In this document: piece after piece, positions 24,182 through 37,050 of the stretch
Layout of the letters: each line of letters opens with the position of its first letter
How positions within the stretch are numbered: position 1 is the stretch's first letter
Source: Leucobacter chironomi DSM 19883
Lineage (GTDB): Bacteria; Actinomycetota; Actinomycetes; Actinomycetales; Microbacteriaceae
Assembly (NCBI RefSeq): GCF_000421845.1
Contig: NZ_ATXU01000003.1
Coordinates: forward strand, 62,001-126,000
Length of the DNA: 64,000 nucleotides
Reading direction: 5' to 3'
Made by a program: the position numbers and the translations under genes
The notes under the pieces: model-generated
Told to the model about the DNA's origin: nothing
What the model saw: the letters and a program-made list of their open reading frames with translations, nothing else
Databases searched by the model: none

Positions 24182-27100
24182 TCAGCCGGCCACGGCCGCG
24201 GCGACCTCGGCGAAGACCCCCGCCGCCCAGTCGCGCGCCGCCTCGGCGGCCGGAATCGAGCCGCCGGCGTCGTGCCGCCCGTACTCTCCCACCCGCGTCG
24301 CGCCGCACGCCTGCAGCGCCTCGTCGACGAGCTCGCTGCCTCGCGAGTAGGTGCGCTCGTAGCTGCGGTCGCCCATGCCGAAGACGGCGTAGCGCACGCC
24401 CGCGAGCCTCGGCCGCTCGTCCGTCAGCTGCCGCACGAAGGGCTGCGCCGCGCTCGGCACCTCGCCGTCGCCGTAGGTGGAGCAGATCACGAGGTGCATG
24501 CGCGACGGGTCGAGGTCGGCCGCGCGCACCTCGGCGAGATCGCGCACCACCAGGTCCGCTGCCTCGCCGAACGCGCGGGCGAGCTCGTCGGCCACGAGCT
24601 CGGCCCCGCCGGACTCGGTGCCGAAGAGGATCGTGGTGGGCGCCGCCGGGCCGATGCCCGACGCCGTCCCCGTCTCGAGCGGCGGCAGTTCGAGGCCGGT
24701 GTCGGCTGCGGCCTCGAGCTGCGCCTCGCGAGTGGGCAGCTTCGCGCGTTCGCGACCGGGCGCGGCTGTCAGGCGCTCGCGCAGGTCGATGCGGCGCCAG
24801 CCGTCGAAGTCGGTCTCGCCAGCGATCGGGGGCAGCCCGGCGGCCGACACGGTCACCGCTCCCGACTGGAGGTCGGCCGCGATGATGCGGGCGAGATCGC
24901 GGGCGTCGGCGCGCTGGTCCGGGATCGTGCCCCGCGGGCCGCGGCGCAGCCACCCCGCCGCGTAGAGGCCGGGCTCCACCCGTCCGTCGGGGTGCGCCCC
25001 CGGCTCGAGCGGGCTGTTCTCGTCGGCCGCGAAGCCGATCGCCGTGATGACGTCGTCGACGACGATCCTCGTCTCGCCTTCACCGCTCCGGAACACCGCG
25101 GTCTCTACGCGCCCCTCGCCCTCGAGGCGCTCGGGCGCGAGCCCGAACCACCACTCGATCGTGATGCGCGGCTCGGCTTCGCCCGCGGGTGCCCCGGGTC
25201 CCGCGGCACCCGCGCCGCCAGCGCCGCCCGCACCCGCGCCCCGCGCGGCGAGCGCCCGCACGGCGTCGATGCGCGCGTCGCGGCCGTCGTCGGCGAGCTC
25301 GCCCGCCCCGTGCACGACGTGCCGCACGCCCGCCAGGCCCGCGAGCTCACGCACCATGACCGGGTCGAAGCGCGCGGTCGCCGGACCGCTGCGGCCCACC
25401 ACGTGCACGGTGCGCACGCGCTCGGTGAAGCGCCGGTGCGAGGCGTCGTCGATGTCGGATCCCTCGAAGCCTGCGGCGTCGCGCGCGATGAGCCGCACGA
25501 TGTCCATGGCCACGTTGCCGTGGCCGATGACGGCGACGCGCTCCCCGAGCGGATCGGGCACGGGCTCGTCGGGGTGGCAGTTGAGGAAGCGGGTCACCGC
25601 GCCCGCCCCGCGCACGCCGACGAGGTCTGCGCCGGGAACGGGGAGCCGCGCGTCGCGGTGCATGCCGGTCGCGAGCACCACCGCGTCGTACGCTCCGCGC
25701 AGGTCTTCGAGCGAGACGTCGGCGCCGACGCGGCAGCTGCCGCGGAATCGCACGCCCTCCTCGGCGAAGAGCCGATCGAACTGCCGGGCCACGGCCTTCG
25801 TGCCCTGATGATCGGCGGCGACCCCGTAGCGCACGAGACCGTAGGGCGTGGGCAGCTCGTCGAACACCTCGACCGGCGCGGCGGGGAAGCTGCGCCGCAG
25901 CGCCTGGGCGGTGAAGCTGCCCGCGGGGCCGGATCCGACGATCGCGACGCGCGGCGCCGGCGGCGCCTCGCCCGCTGCGGCAGCAGCGGGGCGGGACGAG
26001 CGGCGGCCGTTCCAGGCGACGGGCAGCTTCGTCATGCCCCGGAACACCCACCCGCCGATCTCGGCCGGATCGTCTTCCACGAGCGAGAGGCCGTCGAGCG
26101 ATGAGAAGAGAAGCGGCAGCGCGACCTCGGCGACCTCGGCCCGGGCGGCCCAGGCGCCGAGGCACACGTGCACTCCTTTGCCGAAGGCGAGGTGCGGCTT
26201 GGACTCGCGGCGGATGTCGAACGATGCGGGATCGTCCCAGACCCGCTCGTCGCGGTTGGCGGAGAGGATGCAGATGCCGAGGCGGGCGCCCGCGGGCAGC
26301 CGCACGCCGACGAGGTCGGTGTCGCGCGTCACCTGGCGCGAGTAGAGGCCGATGGGCGCCACCCACCGGATCGTCTCGTCGAAGACGGCCTGCCACAGCG
26401 AGGGGTCGCTCTCGACGGCGGCGCGCTGATCGGGGTGGGTGAGCAGCCCCCAGGCGGCGACGCCGAGGGCGTCGCGGGGCTCGTTGAGGCCGCCGCCGAT
26501 CGTCATCTTCACGTTGGCCCGGATGCGGTCGAGCGGCATCTCGTAGTCGGGAATGCGCAGCAGCTGCGAGAGCAGCGACTCGTTCGGGTTGGCGGCGTGC
26601 CACGCGAGCATCTCGTCGAGCGCTGCGTCGACCTCGTCGAACGACTGCTTGCCGAGCGCCCACACCTCGGGGTCGTCGGCGTAGTTGCCGGTGGCGTCGA
26701 TCATCGTCTGCGACCAGCGCTGCAGATCCTGCTGGGTGGCGTTGTGCAGACCGATGAGCTCGCGCAGGCTCTCTGCGGCGAAGGGGGCCGAGAAGTCCCA
26801 GATCAGGTCTGCGCCTGGGCCCTTCGCGATGAACTCCTCGAGGTAGCGCTCGGCATTGCGCTGGAATTTCGACTTCCAGACTCGCTGCACGGCGCCCGGG
26901 CGCAGCGCCGGCTGCCAGGCCTTTCGCTCGATGTAGTGCTCGGGGTCGTCCCTGCGCAGCATCGAGTGGCCCATCGCGCGGATCTGCAGCGACCCCTGCT
27001 CATCGGCCGAGAAGATCTGCTGGTCGAGCTCGGTCTCGTGCACGGCCTCGTATGAGGTGATGAGGTAGCGGCCGACCTGCGGCAACCAGTGCACGCCGCC

Positions 27101-27193
27101 CTCGGCGCGCAGCCGCTCGTAGATGGGGAATGGATCGCGATAGAGATCGGGAATGGTCACCCAGTCTGCGACCGGAGCCTCGTTGCTCGTCAT
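24182..27193 (-). CDS. cytochrome P450 - ferredoxin reductase (FprA type) - flavodoxin fusion
   Basis: A 1003-residue cytoplasmic monooxygenase with its own electron chain. Residues 1-400: P450, with ETIR at 273-276 and heme-binding FGKGVHVCLG (Cys344). The I-helix reads GGGLNEPRD at 233-241, so the usual acid-alcohol pair is replaced by Glu-Pro, as in the GcoA/CYP255-type aromatic O-demethylases. Residues 412-810: adrenodoxin-reductase/FprA module, FAD motif GSGPAG at 420-425 and NADPH motif GHGNVA at 557-562, with a Gly/Ala-rich insert at 652-672. Residues 853-1003: flavodoxin, FMN loop TESGG, then STYGDGEVP. Electrons would pass NADPH-FAD-FMN-heme in one chain. The substrate is unknown; an aryl ether is a guess from the P450 type. 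The start ATG at 27193 is well placed. A HtaA-domain gene and LysR regulator lie divergently. Confidence 0.9.
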   Translation of the reverse strand: MTSNEAPVADWVTIPDLYRDPFPIYERLRAEGGVHWLPQVGRYLITSYEAVHETELDQQIFSADEQGSLQIRAMGHSMLRRDDPEHYIERKAWQPALRPGAVQRVWKSKFQRNAERYLEEFIAKGPGADLIWDFSAPFAAESLRELIGLHNATQQDLQRWSQTMIDATGNYADDPEVWALGKQSFDEVDAALDEMLAWHAANPNESLLSQLLRIPDYEMPLDRIRANVKMTIGGGLNEPRDALGVAAWGLLTHPDQRAAVESDPSLWQAVFDETIRWVAPIGLYSRQVTRDTDLVGVRLPAGARLGICILSANRDERVWDDPASFDIRRESKPHLAFGKGVHVCLGAWAARAEVAEVALPLLFSSLDGLSLVEDDPAEIGGWVFRGMTKLPVAWNGRRSSRPAAAAAGEAPPAPRVAIVGSGPAGSFTAQALRRSFPAAPVEVFDELPTPYGLVRYGVAADHQGTKAVARQFDRLFAEEGVRFRGSCRVGADVSLEDLRGAYDAVVLATGMHRDARLPVPGADLVGVRGAGAVTRFLNCHPDEPVPDPLGERVAVIGHGNVAMDIVRLIARDAAGFEGSDIDDASHRRFTERVRTVHVVGRSGPATARFDPVMVRELAGLAGVRHVVHGAGELADDGRDARIDAVRALAARGAGAGGAGGAGAAGPGAPAGEAEPRITIEWWFGLAPERLEGEGRVETAVFRSGEGETRIVVDDVITAIGFAADENSPLEPGAHPDGRVEPGLYAAGWLRRGPRGTIPDQRADARDLARIIAADLQSGAVTVSAAGLPPIAGETDFDGWRRIDLRERLTAAPGRERAKLPTREAQLEAAADTGLELPPLETGTASGIGPAAPTTILFGTESGGAELVADELARAFGEAADLVVRDLAEVRAADLDPSRMHLVICSTYGDGEVPSAAQPFVRQLTDERPRLAGVRYAVFGMGDRSYERTYSRGSELVDEALQACGATRVGEYGRHDAGGSIPAAEAARDWAAGVFAEVAAAVAG

Positions 27194-27272
27194 GGCGCAC
27201 CTCGTCGTTCTGAACTGCCGTACGCCTTCGAGTATGCTCGGCGCATAAACGAAACAAAAGCGGAATTATCTG

Positions 27273-27301
27273 CATTGTTTATTCGACGACGTGCAACAAT
27301 G
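27273..27301. promoter_or_regulatory. inverted repeat in the P450/HtaA divergent region
   Basis: CATTGTT at 27273-27279 and AACAATG at 27295-27301 form a perfect 7-bp inverted repeat with a 15-bp spacer, containing a TTGTT...AACAA LysR-like core. The surrounding 27230-27300 is distinctly AT-rich. It overlaps the probable start region of the HtaA gene. Confidence 0.5.
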
Positions 27302-27307
27302 GGCGGC

Positions 27308-27808
27308 ATGATCCGCACGCCGTCCGAAGGCCCCGCGCTCGAGTGGGGCATCAAGCGATCCCTCGTGCAGTACGTGATCGGCATGCCCGACGGCTCGGCC
27401 AGCGTGCTCCCTCCCGCACGGGTGGCCCGCGAGGGGTTCCGCTTCCCGGCGGCGGACCCCGCTCGGACCACCGATCCCCGTGCCGCCGGCGTCTCCGACC
27501 GAACGCTCCGCTTCGCCGGAACGGTGACGCTCAGCGGGCACAGCGGCATGCTGAGGCTCGTGTTCGAGGACCCCTGGCTGGTGCCCGGCGCAGGCCGCGG
27601 CCAGGCGTGGGAGCTCACGATCGCAGACCCCTACGAACCGGGATCGCGCCTGACCTTCGCCGCCATCGAGCGCCTCGAACTCGACGCTGCCGGCGGCGGC
27701 GCAGCGAACGGCACCCGCCTCACCGCGGCGGGTGCCGACCTCTTCGCCTCGGGTCCCTACGCCGACGGCACCGAGCTCGACGACCCGGTGGTGGTAGCGC
27801 GTGGCTGA
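27308..27808 (+). CDS. HtaA-domain protein, cytosolic single-domain
   Basis: A protein of 166 residues with the hallmarks of the HtaA domain: LEWGIKRSLVQYVIGMPDG near residue 11 (family pattern WGVKxSFxxYV), F.F after 50 residues, and FAGTVTLSGHSGMLRLVFEDPWL. HtaA domains bind heme in the Corynebacterium uptake proteins HtaA/HtaB, which are secreted and anchored. Here there is no signal peptide, anchor or second domain, so it would be cytosolic. It lies between a P450 gene and a LysR gene, and its stop overlaps the LysR start by 8 nt. A heme delivery or sensing role is inference. An ATG at 27299 is an alternative start. Confidence 0.7.
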   Translation: MIRTPSEGPALEWGIKRSLVQYVIGMPDGSASVLPPARVAREGFRFPAADPARTTDPRAAGVSDRTLRFAGTVTLSGHSGMLRLVFEDPWLVPGAGRGQAWELTIADPYEPGSRLTFAAIERLELDAAGGGAANGTRLTAAGADLFASGPYADGTELDDPVVVARG

Positions 27809-28724
27809 ACCGCTCGACGCGCCCCTGCCCGGCTTCACCCTGCGCCAGCTGGCCTACTTCGTCGCGGCCGCCGACGAGGGCACCATTACGGCCGCCGCCG
27901 AGGTGCTGCGCGTCTCACCCTCGGCGATGTCCGACGCCATCACCGAGCTCGAATCGGTCATGCGCGAGCGGCTGTGCGTGCGCCGCCGGGCCCACGGGCT
28001 CACACTCACACCCGCGGGGGCTCAGCTCGTGCGCCACGCGCGGCTCATGCTCGCCGAGGCCGAGGAGCTGCGCCGCTCCATCGGGGGCGGCGGGCAGCTG
28101 TCCGGCCCCGTCGTAATCGGCTGCTATCCGACGCTCGCGCCGACCGTCCTGCCGCCGCTGCTGCAGGACTTCGCCGAGCTGCACCCGCACATCGAGCTCT
28201 CGATCCGCGAGGCGACGCAAGATCGGCTGGCCGAGGATCTCGCGTCGGGCCGCATCGACGTGGCATTCGTCTACGACATGCTGGTGCCCGGCGATACCGA
28301 GCGCGCCAGGCTCTACGAGCTGCAGGCGCACGCGCTGCTCGCCGCCGACCACCCGCTCGCGGGGCGGGCGAGCGTGCGGCTCGACGAGCTCGTGGGCGAC
28401 GACCTGATCCTGCTCGATGCGCCGCCCTCGAGCGAGCACACCCTCTCCGTGTTCGCCGAGCGCGGTCTGCACCCGCGCATCAGGCATCGCACGGCGAGCT
28501 ACGAGGTGGTGCGCACGCTCGTGGCCCGCGGCCTCGGGTACGGCGTCCTGGTGACGCGGGTCGCCAACCCCGAGAGCTACGAGGGCCTGCCGCTCGTCAC
28601 GAAGACGATCGTTCCGCCGGTGCGCCCGGTCGCGATCGACATGATCTGGGCTCCGGACCGGCCGGTCCCCGCGCGAACCCGGGCCCTGATCGAGTTCGCG
28701 CGGGGCGTCCCCTGGCCCTCGTGA
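27801..28724 (+). CDS. LysR-family transcriptional regulator
   Basis: A protein of 307 residues. The N-terminal winged helix-turn-helix (LRQLAYFVAAADEGTITAAAEVLRVSPSAMSDAITELE) begins about residue 14, and the periplasmic-binding-type effector domain from residue 95 (GPVVIGCYPTLAPTVLPPLL) is complete. GTG at 27801 overlaps the HtaA gene stop, so the two are coupled. It probably controls the divergent P450 fusion. The C-terminal domain should bind a small inducer. Confidence 0.9.
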   Translation: MAEPLDAPLPGFTLRQLAYFVAAADEGTITAAAEVLRVSPSAMSDAITELESVMRERLCVRRRAHGLTLTPAGAQLVRHARLMLAEAEELRRSIGGGGQLSGPVVIGCYPTLAPTVLPPLLQDFAELHPHIELSIREATQDRLAEDLASGRIDVAFVYDMLVPGDTERARLYELQAHALLAADHPLAGRASVRLDELVGDDLILLDAPPSSEHTLSVFAERGLHPRIRHRTASYEVVRTLVARGLGYGVLVTRVANPESYEGLPLVTKTIVPPVRPVAIDMIWAPDRPVPARTRALIEFARGVPWPS

Positions 28725-29774: not shown

Positions 29775-31178
29775 TCAGACCGTGATGACCTTCGGGGCGG
29801 CGACGGCCTTCAGACCGTGCGCGCCGAACTCGAGCCCGTAGCCCGAGGCCTTGACCCCTCCGAACGGCACCATCGGGTTGAGCGTGCCGTGCTGGTTGAT
29901 CCAGACCGTGCCGGCCTCGATGCGCTCCGCCACTCGACGCGCCTCCCCCGGATCCCCCCAGACCGAGGCCCCGAGACCCTGCTCGGAGGCGTTGGCGCGG
30001 GCGATCGCGTCGTCGAGATCGGAGTAGCGGATCACCGGGATCACCGGGCCGAACTGTTCCTCGTCGACGAGGGCCGCGCCGTCCTCGATGTCGGTGACGA
30101 TCGTCGCGCGGTAGAACTGCGCGCCGAGCTCCTCCGCGGGCTCGCCGCCGGTCACGATCCTCGCCCCCCGGGCGCGCGCGTCGTCGACGAGGCGTGCGAC
30201 GATCTCGAACTGCTGCGGCGTCGTCAGCGGACCGAGCAGGCTGCCCTCATCCGTCCCGGGCCCCATCGGGATCGACTCCGCCAGCTCGGCGAGCGCGGCG
30301 ACCACCTCGTCGTGCACGGAGTCGTGCACGTACAGGCGCTTCAGCGCGGCGCACGTCTGGCCGGTGTTGATGAAGATGCCCCAGAAGAGCCCCTCGGCGA
30401 TGGCCCGCGCATCGGCTCCGGGGAGCACGATCCCCGGGTCGTTGCCGCCCAGCTCGAGCGTGAGTCTCGCAAGGTTGTCGGCCGAGCTGCGCACGATCTC
30501 CCGGCCCGTCTCGGTCGACCCGGTGAACATCACCTTGTCGATGCCGGGGTGGCTCGCGATGCGCGCCCCCACCTCCCGGTTGCCCGAGACGACGGTCAGC
30601 ACCCCCTCCGGCAGGTGCCGGTTCATGAGCTCGACGACGGCGAGCACGCTGAGCGGGGTGTAGCTGCTCGGCTTCACCACCACCGCGTTCCCCATGCGCA
30701 GTGACGGGGCGATCTGCCAGATGCCGATCAGCGCGGGCCAGTTCCACGGCCCGATCGCGGCCACCACGCCGAGCGGCACGTAGTGCAGCTCGGAGCGGGT
30801 GCCCTCCGCCTCGAACAGCACCTCGGGCTCGATCGCGGTGTCGGCCGCGCTGCGCACCCAGACGGCGCAGCCGCCGGCCTCGAACCGCGCCCCGGCGCCG
30901 TTCAACGGCTTGCCCTGCTCCCGCGCGATGATCCGCGCGAGGTCCTCGGCGTTCGCCTCGATCTCGTCGGCGGCGAGCCGCAGCAGCCGCGCGCGCTCCT
31001 CGTGCCCGAGGCCGGCCCACGCGGGCTGGGCTGCCCGCGCCGCCTCCACCGCGGCGTCGAGATCGGCCGTCGTGTGCACCGGCGCGTAGCCCATGGTCTC
31101 GCCCGTGGCGGCGTCCGGAATCGGGCGCCCCTCCTCCTGCGTCGCGGAGATCGCGTCCAGCAGCGTGTTGTCGGTCAT
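29775..31178 (-). CDS. NAD(P)-dependent aldehyde dehydrogenase
   Basis: Soluble enzyme of 467 residues that oxidises an aldehyde to its acid. Seen: GPWNWPALIGIWQIAPSL, the NAD loop FTGSTETGREI, the catalytic Glu in LELGGNDPGI and the catalytic Cys in NTGQTCAALKR. Start ATG at 31178 with GGAAGACTGAG upstream; an upstream start would overlap the dctP stop. It is the last gene of the TRAP cluster, so the transported compound or a product of it is probably oxidised through an aldehyde. The aldehyde is not identified. Confidence 0.9.
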   Translation of the reverse strand: MTDNTLLDAISATQEEGRPIPDAATGETMGYAPVHTTADLDAAVEAARAAQPAWAGLGHEERARLLRLAADEIEANAEDLARIIAREQGKPLNGAGARFEAGGCAVWVRSAADTAIEPEVLFEAEGTRSELHYVPLGVVAAIGPWNWPALIGIWQIAPSLRMGNAVVVKPSSYTPLSVLAVVELMNRHLPEGVLTVVSGNREVGARIASHPGIDKVMFTGSTETGREIVRSSADNLARLTLELGGNDPGIVLPGADARAIAEGLFWGIFINTGQTCAALKRLYVHDSVHDEVVAALAELAESIPMGPGTDEGSLLGPLTTPQQFEIVARLVDDARARGARIVTGGEPAEELGAQFYRATIVTDIEDGAALVDEEQFGPVIPVIRYSDLDDAIARANASEQGLGASVWGDPGEARRVAERIEAGTVWINQHGTLNPMVPFGGVKASGYGLEFGAHGLKAVAAPKVITV

Positions 31179-31213
31179 CTCAGTCTTCCTCTCGTCTCGT
31201 ACCGGCGCACCAC

Positions 31214-32374
31214 TCAACGGTCGCCGAAGGAGGCCACGCAGGCGCTCGTCGCATCGTCGTAGGCCACGTCGTCGTAGCTCTCCAGCCCGGCGAGGTACTG
31301 CTCGAGCACGCCCTCAGCGTCCTCGAGCCCCTGCTCGGTGGCGAGCTCGATCCACATCTCCTGACCCGAGTCGCCGAGCGCGTCCTTCCAAGCCTGGGTG
31401 TCCTGCTCGGCCCACGCCGTGAGCGATTTCACGGTCGGGGCATCCTTCATCTGCTGGCACTGACCGGCCGCGACCTCGTTGAACGCCGCGGTGCCCTCAC
31501 CGGTGTTCAGCTCCTCGGCCACCTGGTCGAACTGCTCGCGCAGGTCGTCGGGGAGCGCGTTGTAGGCGTCCGCGTTCACCCACATGCCGAAGGTCGAGTA
31601 CTGGCCGATGCCCGGGTCGGTCCAATCGGGCAGCAGTTCCATCAGCCCGTAGTTCACCGGGAAGTCGATGGCGCCGCCGATCGTGGAGACGACCCCGCGC
31701 TCGACCGCCTCGTAGGTCTCCGGCGCCGTGACGGCGACGATGTTCGCGCCCTCGTTGCCGATGGCCTGCTGGATGATCGGGCCCGAGACGCGCACCTGGG
31801 CGCCCTGGAACTGGGCGACGCTCGTGATCGGCTCGTGCCCGCCGATCAGGAAGCGGCCGACCGGCCACGTCGCGACGTGGTGCAGGCCGTTGCGCTCCAT
31901 GATCGCCTTCGCGGGATCGTAGTCCTCGTGCAGGTCGTAGATGGACTGCATCGCGGCCTGAGCGTTCTGACTGAGGAACGGGATGCTCACCATGCTGGTG
32001 GAGGGGAAGTACTGGGGCGTGTAGTCGGGCACCGTGACGCCGATCTGGGCGCGGCCGTCGCGCACGCAGTCGGCGACCTCGGGCGCCTTGCAGAGCGCCT
32101 CGGTGGCGGTGCGCTCGAAGGCGATGCGGCCCTCGGTGACCTCCTCGACGCGGTCGAGGAACCAGTTCTGCACGGCCGCGTTCGGGGTGTCGGCCTGAGC
32201 GCCGGTCACGAGCGTCCAGGTGACCGATTCCCCGCCGTCTCCGCCGTCTCCGCCCGACGACGCATTGTTGATGCCGGAGCAGCCGGCGAGCACGAGGCCC
32301 GCGACCGCGATGAGGCCGATCGAGGCGGCGGTGCGGCCGACCCGACGGGGGTGCTGGTGGGTGGAGAACATCAT
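31214..32374 (-). CDS. dctP: TRAP transporter substrate-binding lipoprotein (DctP)
   Basis: Extracellular solute receptor of 386 residues. A lipoprotein signal is cut at VLAGC, Cys32 of the ATGATG start (an ATG three bases later is equivalent). The body fits DctP/SBP_bac_7: VTWTLVTGAQADTPN, the VRDGRAQIGVTVPDYTP segment, and QVRVSGPIIQQAIGNEGANIV with the substrate-carboxylate Arg in RVSG. The ribosome binding site is GAAAGGAC. It pairs with the M and Q subunits upstream. Confidence 0.88.
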   Translation of the reverse strand: MMFSTHQHPRRVGRTAASIGLIAVAGLVLAGCSGINNASSGGDGGDGGESVTWTLVTGAQADTPNAAVQNWFLDRVEEVTEGRIAFERTATEALCKAPEVADCVRDGRAQIGVTVPDYTPQYFPSTSMVSIPFLSQNAQAAMQSIYDLHEDYDPAKAIMERNGLHHVATWPVGRFLIGGHEPITSVAQFQGAQVRVSGPIIQQAIGNEGANIVAVTAPETYEAVERGVVSTIGGAIDFPVNYGLMELLPDWTDPGIGQYSTFGMWVNADAYNALPDDLREQFDQVAEELNTGEGTAAFNEVAAGQCQQMKDAPTVKSLTAWAEQDTQAWKDALGDSGQEMWIELATEQGLEDAEGVLEQYLAGLESYDDVAYDDATSACVASFGDR

Positions 32375-32492
32375 TGTCCTTTCATGGGTGTCCCGCTGCC
32401 GTGCGGAGCGAGGTTGACTTCATTGTTCAGCGGTGCGCAGGCACTGTCTTTGGCAGGCGGCGCAGACGGATGAGGCGTTCGCGCAAGGAGTC

Positions 32493-33950
32493 TCAGCCGG
32501 CGCTCTGAGCGACGAGCGACGGCAGGAAGAGCGTGATCGCGGGCACGAAGAAGAGGATCGCCGAGACCACGAGATCCATCAGCATGAGCGGCAGCACGCC
32601 CTTGAACACCGTCTCGGTGCGCAAGCCCGTGGCCCCGGAGACGACGAAGCACGTCATGCCGACCGGTGGCGTCACCATGCCGATCGCCGTGAGCTTCACG
32701 ATCATGAGGCCGAGCCAGATGCCGTCGAAGCCGAGCTCCATCGCGATCGGATAGATGATCGGGATCGTGATGATGAGCACCGAGATCTCGTCGAGGGCGG
32801 TGCCGAGCGGCAGCAGGAGCAGCAGGAGCAGCCCGATCGTCAGCAGCGGCGGTACGTCGAGCCCCGCGACCCAGTTGGTCACGGTGTCGGGTACGTGGGC
32901 TGCGATGAGGAACGTCGAGAACACGCTCGAGCCGACGAGGATCATGAACACCATCGACGTGGTCTGCGCAGTGTCGAGCAGCGCGCCCTTCACGTTGCCC
33001 CACATGGTGCTCCAGCCGTCGCGGCGGAACTCCCAGAGCAGGATGAGGAGCGCTACGAACGCGGCGATCGCGGCCGACTCGGTCGAGGTGAAGACGCCGG
33101 AGAACATGCCTCCGAGGATGATCAGGAAGATCACGCTCAGGCGCACAAGCCCCCGCCACGGCAGGGTGCGCAGCGTGCGGCCGTAGACCTGCTGCACGGC
33201 CTCCGTGTCCGGGGTGCCCGGAGGCAGCGCGGCGGCGGTCGCGGTCGGCTCCGCGGTGCGGGTGCGGCTCGCGCCGCGCGCCTCGGCGGCGTCGGAGTGC
33301 GCGACCGCGACCGCATCGGCGAGCGTCGCCTCGGGCCGCACGATCTGCCGGTGCCCGACGACCAGGATGTACACGATGTAGCCGAGAGCCGAGAGCACGC
33401 CCGGGATGATGCCCGCGGCGAGGATCTGCGCGACCGACTCGCCCGTCATGATCGCGTACAGCACGAGGAAGGTGCTCGGCGGGATCACGACGCCCAGGGT
33501 GCCGGCGATGGCCACGATGCCCGTCGCGAGCGCCGCGGGGTAGCCGTAGGCCCGCATCTGCCCGACTGACAGCTTCGACATGGTGGCGGCCGTGCCGATG
33601 CTCGAACCTGAGACTGCCGAGAAGCCCGCGCACGCCATGACGGTGGCGACGCCGAGGCCTCCCGGGAAGCGGCTGACCATGTGGTTCGCGACCGCGAACA
33701 CGTGCTCCGCGATCCGGGCCCGCATGGCGAACATGCCCATGAGTATGAACATGGGGATGATCGTCAACGAGAAGCTCGCGGTCGCACTGAAGGGCACGGA
33801 GCCGAGCACGTTCGTGGTGTAGCCGGTGCCCTGCAGGATGCCGAGGCCCAGCGCACCCGAGAGGGCGAGCGAAAGGGCGACCGGCATACGCAGCATCAGC
33901 AGCACGAGCAGCAGCACGACGATCGTGAGCACGATCACTGTGACGAGCAT
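32493..33950 (-). CDS. dctM: TRAP transporter large permease (DctM)
   Basis: Membrane subunit of 485 residues with about twelve hydrophobic segments and the family features PFSATASFSLTIIPMFILMGMF and FSAVSGSSIGTAATMSK in the first half, and AALPPGTPD in a central cytoplasmic insert (residues about 225-270) that is unusually long and acidic. It moves the substrate using a Na+ gradient. Start ATG at 33950, 39 nt after the dctQ stop. Confidence 0.92.
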   Translation of the reverse strand: MLVTVIVLTIVVLLLVLLMLRMPVALSLALSGALGLGILQGTGYTTNVLGSVPFSATASFSLTIIPMFILMGMFAMRARIAEHVFAVANHMVSRFPGGLGVATVMACAGFSAVSGSSIGTAATMSKLSVGQMRAYGYPAALATGIVAIAGTLGVVIPPSTFLVLYAIMTGESVAQILAAGIIPGVLSALGYIVYILVVGHRQIVRPEATLADAVAVAHSDAAEARGASRTRTAEPTATAAALPPGTPDTEAVQQVYGRTLRTLPWRGLVRLSVIFLIILGGMFSGVFTSTESAAIAAFVALLILLWEFRRDGWSTMWGNVKGALLDTAQTTSMVFMILVGSSVFSTFLIAAHVPDTVTNWVAGLDVPPLLTIGLLLLLLLPLGTALDEISVLIITIPIIYPIAMELGFDGIWLGLMIVKLTAIGMVTPPVGMTCFVVSGATGLRTETVFKGVLPLMLMDLVVSAILFFVPAITLFLPSLVAQSAG

Positions 33951-33989
33951 GACGGGTCTCCTGTCCGAGGTGTGGAACGGGGGCGGGCG

Positions 33990-34535
33990 CTACGCATCGA
34001 GCACCACCTCCGCGTCTTCTCCGTAGGCGGTGCGGCCGCGGATCACGCGCACCAGGTTGACGAGCGCGACGATCGCCCAGAACAGCACGCCGGCCGCGAT
34101 GATCCAGCGCAGCGGCCAGATCGGCCACTGCACGAGGCCGAAGCGGGTCTCGCTCATGCTCGTCGACTGCACTGCGCGCGCGAGGAGGGCGGCGGTCATC
34201 CAGCCGAGGATCACGGCGTTGAGCGCCCAGATGAGCACCGACGCCGCCCGCGCGAGGCCGGGCTTCAGGCGGTCGGTGACGATGGTGACGGCTACGTGGC
34301 CGCCCTGGATCGAGGTCCACGCGAGGCCGAGGAACACCGACGCGACGAGCGCCGTCTCGGCGATCTCCATCATGCCGGGCAGGCTCGCGCGGGTGGTCCA
34401 GCGCACGAGCACGTCGATCACGGTCGCGAGCATGAGCACCACGAGGGCACCCGCCGCGATGACGCCGAGCGCGGCGCTGCACCGCTTCAGCCAGCGGTCG
34501 AAGGCCGATCCGCCGGGTTCTGCCGAGGTCTCCAT
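33990..34535 (-). CDS. dctQ: TRAP transporter small permease (DctQ)
   Basis: Membrane protein of 181 residues with four hydrophobic segments and the family motif VFLGLAWTSIQGGHVAVTIV. An N-terminal cytoplasmic stretch precedes. Its stop-start spacing with dctM is 39 nt and its start is eight bases after the dehydrogenase stop. Confidence 0.88.
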   Translation of the reverse strand: METSAEPGGSAFDRWLKRCSAALGVIAAGALVVLMLATVIDVLVRWTTRASLPGMMEIAETALVASVFLGLAWTSIQGGHVAVTIVTDRLKPGLARAASVLIWALNAVILGWMTAALLARAVQSTSMSETRFGLVQWPIWPLRWIIAAGVLFWAIVALVNLVRVIRGRTAYGEDAEVVLDA

Positions 34536-34543
34536 GGCGCGTC

Positions 34544-35431
34544 CTAGCGGTCCCGCCAGAACTCGAAGGCGCGCGTGTGGTCCACGTTGCCGAGGGCATC
34601 CAGCGCCTCGCCCATGACGCGGGTCACGGCGTCGCAGACGGGCGCCTCGCGGCCGGCGGCCTGCTGCACCCGCTGCGCGATCCTCACGTCCTTCGTGAAG
34701 AGCGGCAGCGCGAAGCCGCTCGCGTACTGCTCGCCCACGACGTGCGCGGGCAGCACATGGGTGGTGACGAAGCTCTGCCCGGTCGAGGCGTTGAACACCT
34801 CGACCATCACTTCGGGGTCGAGGCCGAAGTCGGCGCCCGCTGCGAGCGCCTCGGAGGCCGCGGTGAACGCCGCCGCGGCCACGAAGTTGTTGAGGGCCTT
34901 CATCGCGTGCCCGGTGCCCAGCCTGCCGGTGCGGAAGATGCGCGAGCTCATCGTCTCGATCACGGGGATCGCCCGCTCGGCCGCGGCGTCGTCGTCGGCG
35001 CCGAGCATGATCGAGAGGGTCCCGTCGACCGCTCGTTCCCGCGCACCCGACACGGGGGCGTCGACCAGCGCGTAGCCCGCGCGGTGCAGCGCCTCGCCCG
35101 TCTCCACGGTCTCGGTCGGATCCGATGAGCTCATGTCGACGAAGACCGTGCCGGGGCGGGCCGGGATGCGGGGGGCGCCGTCGCCGTCGAGCAGTGCCTC
35201 GCGCACGATGGCGCTGGTCGGCAGCATCAAGACGATCACCTCGCGATCGGCGAGGTCCGCGACGCGCTCCACGGCCGACGCGCCGACGCGGCCCGCGAGC
35301 TCTCGCGCACGGTTGTGATCGACGTCGAACAGGGCCAGGTCGAACTCCCCCGACGCCGCGATGTTGCTGGACATGGGGTCGCCCATCGTGCCCAGACCGA
35401 TGAAGCCGACCCGTGTGATCCGCTCGTTCAT
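34544..35431 (-). CDS. beta-hydroxyacid dehydrogenase (HIBADH/GarR family)
   Basis: A cytoplasmic NAD(P) enzyme of 295 residues. N-terminal GFIGLGTMGDPMSSNI, FVDMSSSDP, DAPVSGARERAVDGTLSIM and catalytic Lys in TGHAMKALNNFV are all in place. The family includes 3-hydroxyisobutyrate and tartronate-semialdehyde reductases; which one this is cannot be decided. Being in the TRAP cluster suggests it acts on a beta-hydroxy acid from the imported compound. Confidence 0.88.
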   Translation of the reverse strand: MNERITRVGFIGLGTMGDPMSSNIAASGEFDLALFDVDHNRARELAGRVGASAVERVADLADREVIVLMLPTSAIVREALLDGDGAPRIPARPGTVFVDMSSSDPTETVETGEALHRAGYALVDAPVSGARERAVDGTLSIMLGADDDAAAERAIPVIETMSSRIFRTGRLGTGHAMKALNNFVAAAAFTAASEALAAGADFGLDPEVMVEVFNASTGQSFVTTHVLPAHVVGEQYASGFALPLFTKDVRIAQRVQQAAGREAPVCDAVTRVMGEALDALGNVDHTRAFEFWRDR

Positions 35432-35455
35432 GTCGTTGCTCCTCTCCCGCGCCCG

Positions 35456-35869
35456 CTAGGGGCGCTCCGCTTCCCCGTCGAGATCCAGCGCGATACCCCG
35501 CTCCTCGAGGATCTCCTCGAGCGCGCGCAGCCCCTCGACCGCGGCGGGGATGCCGCAGTAGAGGATCGAGTGCACAACGACCTCGCGCAGCTCGATCGGG
35601 GAGACGCCATTGGCCAGCGCACCGCGCGCGTGCACCCGCAGCTCATGCGACTTGCCCTGCGCGATCAGCATCGCGAACGTGACGCGGCTGCGCTCGGCGT
35701 ACGAGAGCCCGTCGCGCTGCCAGATGTCGCCGAAGCAGTACCGGGTGACGAAGTCCTGCAGCTTGTCGTTGAGGTCGGTGGTGTGCTCCACCTGGCCCTC
35801 CGCCCCCTCGGGCCCGAACATGGTGCGTCGCTGACGCAGGCCGACGTCGTACAGCTCGTCTCGGATCAC
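35456..35869 (-). CDS. carboxymuconolactone decarboxylase family protein
   Basis: A protein of 137 residues of the CMD/AhpD fold. It contains FVTRYCFGDIWQRDGLSYAERSRVTFAMLIAQGKSHELRVH and ELREVVVHSILYCGIPAAVEG. The typical CxxC of AhpD is absent, which fits the PcaC-like branch (4-carboxymuconolactone decarboxylase, protocatechuate pathway) but does not prove it. It is the first gene of the TRAP cluster and is divergent from the AraC regulator. Confidence 0.85.
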   Translation of the reverse strand: MIRDELYDVGLRQRRTMFGPEGAEGQVEHTTDLNDKLQDFVTRYCFGDIWQRDGLSYAERSRVTFAMLIAQGKSHELRVHARGALANGVSPIELREVVVHSILYCGIPAAVEGLRALEEILEERGIALDLDGEAERP

Positions 35870-36081
35870 GATCCACTCCTTCGAAGATTCGCCGCGGCCG
35901 CGTCGCCGCGCTGCTCATCAGTGTGCCCGAGGCGGCGGGCACGCCACTTGTCCGCTGCCGCAGTCCCGCTGGCAGATCGCGCAGCCCGTCGCGCAGCCAG
36001 CCGCCCGGGCTGGAAGCGGCGGCCGGTTGGTCGTACTCTTGCACACGGACGATGATGTTCAACGGGCAAGGAGGCATGCCG

Positions 36082-37050
36082 ATGTCGGCGCACGATCCCC
36101 AATATTCGATGGAGTCGCACGAGTCGGTCGGATTCGACGAATGGGTGCGACTGGTCGGCAACCGCTTCGTACCGCTCGCACTGTCGACCGGCTCGCCCGA
36201 GACCTTCACGGGCACGATCCGCACCCGCACCATCGGCGGCATCTGCGTCACCGACATCGCCGCGTCCTCGCACAGCGTGCACCGGCTTTCGAACGCCATC
36301 CGCCGCGACAAGAACGACCACCTCAAGCTGAGCATGCAGCTCGAGGGCACCGGTCTCGTGATGCAGGACGGTCGCAGCGCCCACCTCAACCCTGGCGACG
36401 CCGCCATCTACGACACGTCGCGCCCCTACACCCTCGAGTACGGCGGGCCCATGCGATCGCTCGTCATGCTCTTTCCCCACTCCATGCTGGGGCTCTCGGC
36501 GAGCATGGTGCACACGGTCACCGCGGCGCGACTCGCGGGCGACACGGGGATCGGCCGCGTGATCTGCCCCTTCATGCAGCACATGGCCGAGAACCTCGAC
36601 CAGCTCGAGGGCGTGAACGGCTCGCGCATCATGCACAGCGCCTTCGAGCTCATCACGGCGCTGCTCTCGTCCGAGATCCAGGCGACGTCGACGCGCGACG
36701 AGCACGGCGTGGCGTTCGAGTCGGTGCGCATGCACATCGATTCGCACCTCTGCGATCCCGATCTCAACACCGACTCCATCGCGAAGACCCACTTCATCTC
36801 CACCCGTCAGCTGCAGTACCTGTTCCAGGAGGAGGGGCTCACCGTCTCCGGCTACATCCGGTCGCGGCGCCTCGAGCGCTGCCGCATCGACCTCGAGGAC
36901 TCCGCGCTGCAGGAGCGCACGGTGCTGCAGATCGCGCAGGCCGGGGGCTTCGTCGACCTCAGCCACTTCAGCAAGCTCTTCAAGTCGACTTACGGTCGCA
37001 CGCCGCGCGAGCACCGACTCGCGCATCTCCGCGCAGTCGCGCTTCTATGA
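36082..37050 (+). CDS. AraC-family regulator of the TRAP cluster
   Basis: A protein of 322 residues. The N-terminal AraC_binding_2-type sensor has KNDHLKLSMQLEGTGLVMQDGR and ...PGDAAIYDTSRPYTLEY. The C-terminal DNA-binding domain has DSIAKTHFISTRQLQYLFQEEGLTVSGYIRSRRLERC and VLQIAQAGGFVDLSHFSKLFKSTYGRTPREHR. ATG at 36082 is chosen because AAGGAGG (36068-36074) is seven bases away; the ATG at 36076 is too close. It is divergent from the CMD-like gene and probably activates the TRAP-ALDH operon. Confidence 0.88.
   Translation: MSAHDPQYSMESHESVGFDEWVRLVGNRFVPLALSTGSPETFTGTIRTRTIGGICVTDIAASSHSVHRLSNAIRRDKNDHLKLSMQLEGTGLVMQDGRSAHLNPGDAAIYDTSRPYTLEYGGPMRSLVMLFPHSMLGLSASMVHTVTAARLAGDTGIGRVICPFMQHMAENLDQLEGVNGSRIMHSAFELITALLSSEIQATSTRDEHGVAFESVRMHIDSHLCDPDLNTDSIAKTHFISTRQLQYLFQEEGLTVSGYIRSRRLERCRIDLEDSALQERTVLQIAQAGGFVDLSHFSKLFKSTYGRTPREHRLAHLRAVALL

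Follow-up and report, generated by a model that had tools for sequence, protein, structure and literature searches.

In the class III system of P450cin, the cytochrome P450 (family CYP176; PMC9405906), cindoxin and cindoxin reductase are three separate proteins, through which electrons pass in the order nicotinamide adenine dinucleotide phosphate (NADPH), flavin adenine dinucleotide (FAD), flavin mononucleotide (FMN) and heme (PMC9687028). XplA (class VI, CYP177) is covalently joined to an N-terminal flavodoxin and has a separate cognate flavodoxin reductase, XplB; it has lost the acid-Thr pair and denitrates RDX reductively (PMC8081977). CYP116B enzymes such as P450RhF and CYP116B46 (class VII) combine in one chain a P450, a phthalate-dioxygenase-type FMN reductase as electron entry in the middle, and a C-terminal 2Fe-2S ferredoxin as one-electron carrier (PMC9687028; PMC11173547), and P450BM3 (CYP102, class VIII) holds FAD, FMN and heme in one chain with a diflavin reductase of the cytochrome P450 reductase (CPR) type. 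CYP1232A24 of Arthrobacter sp. (PDB entry 6g71) has flavodoxin and flavodoxin reductase partners, reported as separate genes (PMC9687028); the same source cites two Arthrobacter P450s from Klenk et al. 2019, a paper whose title names papaverine metabolism, with a flavodoxin and a flavodoxin reductase in the cluster. Here we describe a gene of Leucobacter chironomi DSM 19883 in which P450, reductase and flavodoxin are one protein. It lies in a stretch of 64,000 nucleotides (contig NZ_ATXU01000003.1, positions 62,001 to 126,000; hereafter the window, whose own numbering is used), and it encodes, uninterrupted, a P450, an FAD module of the adrenodoxin reductase (AdR)/FprA type and a cindoxin-like flavodoxin (Table 1).

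The gene is a single frame of 1003 codons on the minus strand (24182-27193), without internal stop, which runs from an ATG at 27193 to a stop codon at 24182-24184 and yields a product of 1003 amino acids. At E up to 0.001, Pfam recognises only three families, p450 (residues 267-354), Pyr_redox_2 (415-565) and Flavodoxin_1 (855-977). When the parts were searched one by one against PDB sequences, the heme part matched 6g71 best (E 1.4e-168), the middle part matched adrenodoxin reductase (1cjc, E 4.9e-45) and FprA (1lqt, E 5.8e-40), and the C-terminus matched cindoxin (4oxx, E 1.9e-22), the nearest solved flavodoxin. These matches rule out a reductase of the CPR or phthalate type. Frame, Pfam and PDB matches thus confirm the preliminary description of this DNA, which had read a P450, an FprA-type FAD module and a flavodoxin in this order in one chain. 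The motifs Cys344, GGGLNEPRD, GSGPAG and GHGNVA can be read in the protein. In an alignment of 31 rows, Cys344, Glu238-Pro239 and TYGDGE (906-911) are invariant, as are G939, G941, D942, S944 and Y945 of the flavodoxin. The heme and FMN motifs are therefore intact, as had been supposed, and a decayed heme or FMN site is ruled out.

An AlphaFold model of the fusion, for which 31 of 34 aligned sequences were used and three near-copies omitted, has a mean predicted local distance difference test (pLDDT) score of 80 and a predicted template modelling score of 0.67. Searched with Foldseek, it returned 6g71 first ('Structure of CYP1232A24 from Arthrobacter sp.'), followed by the FprA and adrenodoxin reductase structures. 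The pLDDT falls below 50 in both linkers (399-409 and 841-847) and in five further stretches.

Like class III systems, the fusion supplies its heme domain through an FAD reductase and an FMN flavodoxin, judging by the cofactors predicted from sequence; unlike them, it has these partners in one open frame instead of on separate polypeptides. XplA shares the covalent bond between P450 and flavodoxin, but its flavodoxin is N-terminal and its reductase separate, whereas in the fusion both modules follow the P450 in the same chain, with the flavodoxin at 855-977. The single chain, which electrons enter in the middle and which ends in a one-electron carrier, resembles CYP116B. However, the AdR-type FAD module and the flavodoxin are unrelated to the class VII modules, and neither a phthalate-dioxygenase-type FMN reductase nor a C-terminal 2Fe-2S ferredoxin was found in the chain. 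P450BM3 also unites FAD, FMN and heme, but in class VIII the FAD module is of the CPR type, belongs to the ferredoxin-NADP reductase family and stands behind the FMN module, whereas here it is of the AdR/FprA type and precedes it.

In the portion consulted of PMC11173547 (2024), a chain of P450, AdR-type reductase and flavodoxin is absent from the ten redox classes, and the order is likewise absent from the fusions named in the corresponding portions of PMC9405906 and of PMC9687028, which mentions a Paraburkholderia ferredoxin-FAD-P450 chain. This agrees with the preliminary description, whose author knew of no report of the order. PMC9405906 gives CYP116B3 as an example in which a flavodoxin is joined to the P450 as well as to the reductase; since class VII (Rhodococcus type) has a 2Fe-2S ferredoxin in PMC11173547, we take this as loose wording. 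The order was not described in the titles and abstract openings among the matches listed from the open-access literature, a body of text that covers few subscription papers, so that absence from print is not established. Searches of the same literature found no paper for CYP1232 by name, three matches for 6G71, all unrelated, and two papers for papaverine P450s.

P450s are assigned to one family at 40% identity and to one subfamily at 55%. The heme domain of the fusion is 61.9% identical to CYP1232A24 over 391 residues and 30.7% identical to GcoA over 411 columns, which by these thresholds places it inside CYP1232 and outside CYP255, the family to which we take GcoA and SyoA to belong. VIA-align, whose result rows all concern the heme domain, gave Z of 44.0 against 6g71, compared with 35.8 to 37.2 against the GcoA and SyoA entries, a likeness in general fold. 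Two presumed substrate-recognition stretches share 17/25 and 18/26 residues with CYP1232A24. The I-helix does carry the Glu-Pro pair that had earlier been compared with CYP255 O-demethylases, but this pair is common to the fusion, CYP1232A24 and GcoA and hence is no mark of CYP255. Membership of CYP255 is rejected and kinship with that family unsupported, given 31% identity to GcoA versus 62% to CYP1232A24, and Z of at most 37.2 versus 44.0; GcoA also differs in its partner (GcoB). The P450 tree suggested in the preliminary description was built with one CYP255 sequence, while CYP177, CYP102 and CYP116 were left out. It unites 50 fused-type heme domains (47 intact and 3 broken or cut) with 6g71 in one group (Shimodaira-Hasegawa-like approximate likelihood ratio test 99), where 6g71 sits on a long branch inside the group of fused rows, its exact place being unsure. 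Next outward come L075, a lone P450 from the window's family (support 80), and then 13 lone Micrococcaceae P450s. On sequence grounds, the heme domain belongs with CYP1232A24 and away from CYP255.

The fusion is not confined to this strain. A search for the same three-domain order, also proposed earlier, was rewarded: the collected loci contain 60 stop-to-stop frames with all three domains, of which 47 are distinct after removal of identical heme domains, with intact copies from Leucobacter, Agrococcus, Microbacterium, Micrococcaceae and others. So many distinct intact copies rule out an assembly or frameshift artefact. Among the matches listed, strongest first, 22 of the 54 Leucobacter genomes have the fusion; this number includes G029, where it is broken between domains, and G039, where a contig end cuts it off. 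For the remaining 46 genomes of the 100 searched, no fusion appeared among these matches. Even samples yielded the fusion in 6/150 genomes across the family and in 2/149 across the order, the organism's own genome counted. In Micrococcaceae, the family of G296, it occurs in 15/245 genomes, and the 14 of these loci that were inspected all have the three parts. Named genomes, searched by pattern, contributed 38 loci, 29 of them fused, broken or cut copies included (L009-L035, L045, L046), and 9 with a lone P450 (L036-L044). The fused loci include Leucobacter, Agrococcus, Microbacterium, Serinicoccus, Labedella, Subtercola, Zimmermannella, Pseudoglutamicibacter and one Arthrobacter. P450 and reductase lie in different frames in L046 (Leucobacter massiliensis), the fusion is broken within the reductase in L034, a metagenome-assembled genome (MAG), and it is cut by a contig end in L033. 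The junction in L046 (11150-11340) looks unlike that of relatives and may resemble the end of a sequencing adaptor; possibly, this is an assembly fault. By its sequence, the protein represents a widespread and conserved class III P450 of CYP1232 type with all its partners fused to it.

The middle module has the hallmarks of FprA and AdR, a GxGxxG FAD site (GSGPAG) and a G-x-GNVA nucleotide site (GHGNVA). In these reductases an Arg-Arg pair binds the 2'-phosphate of NADPH. The pair is present in 1cjc and 1lqt, but the fusion departs from them here, with Arg601-Ser602 at the corresponding place. Counted by alignment column, Arg-Ser occurs in 47/47 distinct fusions and in 15/17 separate reductases among the collected loci, and is therefore a trait of a wider reductase group, not of the fusion alone. 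Hence, the FprA-type fold and motifs of the proposed NADPH module stand, while the preference for NADPH itself is uncertain.

The redox partners of the fused lineage differ from those of its sisters. We compared non-identical loci with a P450 of at least 55% identity and at least 2.5 kb upstream, 46 of them fused (three broken or cut) and 12 with a lone P450. A 2Fe-2S ferredoxin and a putidaredoxin-type reductase stand beside the P450 in 12/12 lone loci, in contrast to 0/46 fused loci. A divergent LysR gene lies upstream in 44/46 fused and 12/12 lone-P450 loci. L075, the closest lone P450 in the tree at 51% identity, is likewise accompanied by genes for LysR, ferredoxin and a putidaredoxin-type reductase (locus L128). 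More distant relatives, on plasmids of Agrobacterium leguminum, Rhodococcus opacus and Sinorhizobium americanum, belong to the ferredoxin type as well. At one locus (L059, G017:C1:1739000-1758500) the fusion adjoins a second, related P450 system, whose P450 is ~44% identical to the group and has its own LysR, ferredoxin, putidaredoxin-type reductase and metabolite:H+ symporter (MHS) transporter genes.

Unfused genes for P450, AdR-type reductase and flavodoxin occur in the same order in L141 (Rhodococcus pyridinivorans plasmid pA), with a 4-base overlap between the P450 gene and that of the reductase, and in Leucobacter L065, where the P450 stop overlaps the apparent GTG start of the reductase. 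Their P450s are distant from that of the fusion (24 and 31% identity, respectively), so that these loci illustrate how such a fusion can form and do not represent its parent. A search with 6g71 among the 245 Micrococcaceae genomes gave 15 genomes at E up to 1e-150, all with the fusion and 59-63% identical, and no direct unfused parent. Fused and separate copies are not separated in the flavodoxin tree. In the FastTree reductase tree, the group spanning all fused rows also holds the broken L046 and the separate L063 and L077, and in the IQ-TREE reductase tree the fused rows form two groups with 12 separate rows between them. An approximately unbiased (AU) test did not reject one clade of fused reductases (p 0.854), the constrained tree being 22.7 log units better. 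A single origin of the fused reductases is thus compatible with the AU test, but unproven.

We consider it probable that the protein is a self-sufficient, fused class III (flavodoxin-dependent) P450 that demethylates a methoxylated phenylacetate and is induced by its LysR-type regulator. Judging by the domain families and the order of electron transfer in the P450cin system (PMC9687028), a reduced nicotinamide would pass hydride to the FAD in the FprA-like domain at the centre of the chain, and the FAD would pass single electrons to the FMN of the C-terminal flavodoxin. Tethered by a flexible linker, the flavodoxin would swing towards the N-terminal heme domain and reduce it at the proximal face, twice per O2. 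The heme domain would then convert the methoxylated phenylacetate, with homovanillate or 3,4-dimethoxyphenylacetate as best guesses, into homoprotocatechuate and formaldehyde, and HpaD with the hpa pathway would open the homoprotocatechuate ring.

The proposed substrate is suggested by pathway genes near the fusion. Among the longer loci (at least 9 kb upstream; 26 fused, 8 with a lone P450), the fused ones carry HpaD in 11, HpaE in 12, HpaH in 11, HpaI in 11 and FAH-RraA in 13, a set that represents the homoprotocatechuate meta-cleavage route, while each of the five is found in 0/8 lone-P450 loci. The hpa-linked fused loci belong to Agrococcus, Microbacterium, Subtercola and strain 31B; one of them is L022 of Agrococcus baldri. 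HpaD of L012 reaches 440.9 bits against an NCBIfam cut-off of 321.4. In the genome of L. chironomi itself, an HpaD above the cut-off lies at G000:C1:149869 with other hpa genes around it; HpaD, HpaE, HpaH, HpaI and FAH-RraA stand together with a GntR gene and are 60-85% identical to those of relatives. Within Leucobacter, HpaD exceeds the cut-off in 22/22 genomes with the fusion and in 26/32 without it. The hpa genes beside the fusion and in its own genome thus suggest that the fusion O-demethylates methoxylated phenylacetates, homovanillate for instance. CYP1232A24 reportedly demethylates dimethoxyphenylacetate and homovanillate. Together, the hpa linkage, the kinship with CYP1232A24 in its papaverine context and this reported activity make methoxylated phenylacetates the best guess, and the fusion probably O-demethylates such lignin-like aromatic acids for use as nutrients. 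The earlier suggestion of an aromatic O-demethylase is therefore plausible, with methoxylated phenylacetates better supported than guaiacol.

Several observations weigh against this assignment. An identity of 62% to CYP1232A24 leaves the substrate unfixed. HpaD is missing from 15/26 longer fused loci, and no hpa gene was recognised among the inspected neighbours of the fusion in the window, which are HtaA, LysR, proC, aldehyde dehydrogenase and tripartite ATP-independent periplasmic (TRAP) transporter genes. HpaE, HpaH and HpaI are the best matches for their genes but fall below the NCBIfam cut-offs, which HpaD alone passes, and the co-occurrence of HpaD with the fusion is weak (hypergeometric p ~0.035 by hand, uncorrected for kinship). 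The low-confidence stretches of the model include 333-343, 457-466 and 943-948, close to the heme, FAD and FMN sites. The same self-sufficient chain might serve another substrate, such as guaiacol, vanillate or a product of alkaloid breakdown, or another reaction, such as N- or S-dealkylation. This would suit the fused loci without HpaD nearby, the aldehyde dehydrogenase and TRAP transporter genes in the window, the phenol-hydroxylase-like genes that adjoin the fusion in some relatives, and the papaverine paper from which CYP1232A24 stems, but it sits less well with the hpa genes at 11/26 longer loci and in the organism's own genome and with a nearest characterised heme domain that reportedly acts in the same chemical neighbourhood. 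We regard it as rather unlikely.

Electrons might also cross between chains, either in a dimer, from the flavodoxin to the partner's heme, or with the reductase half serving other P450s of the cell. A dimer is called the active form of P450BM3 (PMC9687028), the linkers of the model are flexible, and the genome encodes a further P450 whose reductase and flavodoxin are separate (L056); the union of the three domains in one frame in 47 distinct copies stands on the other side but says little here. Such an arrangement seems quite unlikely to us. A reductive enzyme resembling XplA is highly improbable, for although the acid-Thr pair is missing in both, with Glu-Pro in its place in the I-helix of the fusion, Glu-Pro also occurs in GcoA, an oxidative O-demethylase, and the plasmid matches taken for XplA/XplB are only ~35-36% identical.

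In addition to the fused enzyme with its probable demethylase role, the locus contains a divergent regulator and a small HtaA-domain gene. The LysR-type regulator probably switches the P450 fusion gene, most likely by inducing it. In 32 upstream stretches of 250 bases, CGCTTT is present in 26 and CATACTC in 19 (raw counts), and CGCTTT is followed by CATACT at 10-30 bases in 15/32, a raw count with no shuffled control; perhaps the two elements form a shared promoter. A palindrome, TATGC-N5-GCATA, is exact in only 4/32 upstream stretches, the window included, and is therefore not claimed as an operator.

A protein with an HtaA domain (PF04213), whose start in the window was chosen by comparison, is encoded near the fusion in 32/46 fused loci, among them L106-L110, L112-L115 and L117, and in 0/12 lone-P450 loci. 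Its gene is on the strand of the P450 in 10 fused loci and on the opposite strand in 22. HtaA genes also occur beside unfused P450-reductase-flavodoxin genes (L057, L065), a weak HtaA match lies at the reductase end in L063, and the organism's own genome contains four PF04213 matches altogether. Our guess is that this protein is a cytosolic heme helper for P450s. Tentatively, the system might even constitute an unlisted redox class: a fully fused class III P450 of one actinomycetotal origin, in which a CYP1232-type demethylase swapped ferredoxin for flavodoxin, perhaps uses NADH, and has a dedicated cytosolic HtaA heme protein as fourth component for heme loading or sensing.

Further along the window, 29778-37050 contains genes for an aldehyde dehydrogenase, a TRAP transporter (DctP, DctM, DctQ), a 3-hydroxyisobutyrate dehydrogenase (HIBADH)-like dehydrogenase and an AraC regulator. 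As loci L009, L010 and L013 show, this gene set adjoins the fusion in Leucobacter and also in a Serinicoccus MAG, where the identities are 36-70%.

Table 1. Features of the fusion locus, in window positions unless residues are stated.
Feature	Position	Strand	Evidence
Three-domain protein gene, 1003 amino acids + stop	24182..27193	-	open frame; 47 distinct intact relatives
P450 heme domain, CYP1232 type by sequence, residues 1-398	26000..27193	-	6g71 E 1.4e-168, 62% identity, VIA-align Z 44.0
Cys344 codon	26162-26164	-	heme domain
Glu238-Pro239 codons	26477-26482	-	heme domain I-helix
Linker 1, residues 399-413	25955..25999	-	pLDDT <50 at 399-409; between domain matches
FAD/NAD(P)H module, adrenodoxin reductase (FprA) type, residues ~414-830	24704..25954	-	1cjc, 1lqt; FprA/AdR fold match; motifs
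Reductase motifs	GSGPAG 420-425, GHGNVA 557-562, Arg601-Ser602 (residues)	-	sequence
Linker 2, residues ~831-851	24641..24703	-	pLDDT <50 at 841-847
Flavodoxin (FMN) module, residues ~852-1003	24185..24640	-	Flavodoxin_1 1.3e-22; cindoxin 4oxx 1.9e-22; TESGG, TYGDGE, GMGDRSY loops
Candidate divergent promoter region; CGCTTT + CATACTC elements	27194..27298	.	recur upstream of P450 start
Small HtaA-domain protein, 169 amino acids, overlaps LysR start	27299..27808	+	PF04213 E 6.8e-11; own-genome match
Divergent LysR-type regulator	27801..28724	+	LysR Pfam; divergent LysR in 44/46 fused, 12/12 lone loci

Self-sufficient P450s are valued as biocatalysts, and reviews name few natural layouts. If our assignment is true, the fusion would provide aromatic O-demethylation from a single gene, of use in lignin funnelling, and the 47 distinct P450-AdR-flavodoxin chains with their linkers offer a natural set for study. 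The sister groups, which share the same P450 and LysR regulator but differ in having a ferredoxin or a fused flavodoxin, provide a natural experiment on the exchange of redox partners and on their fusion.

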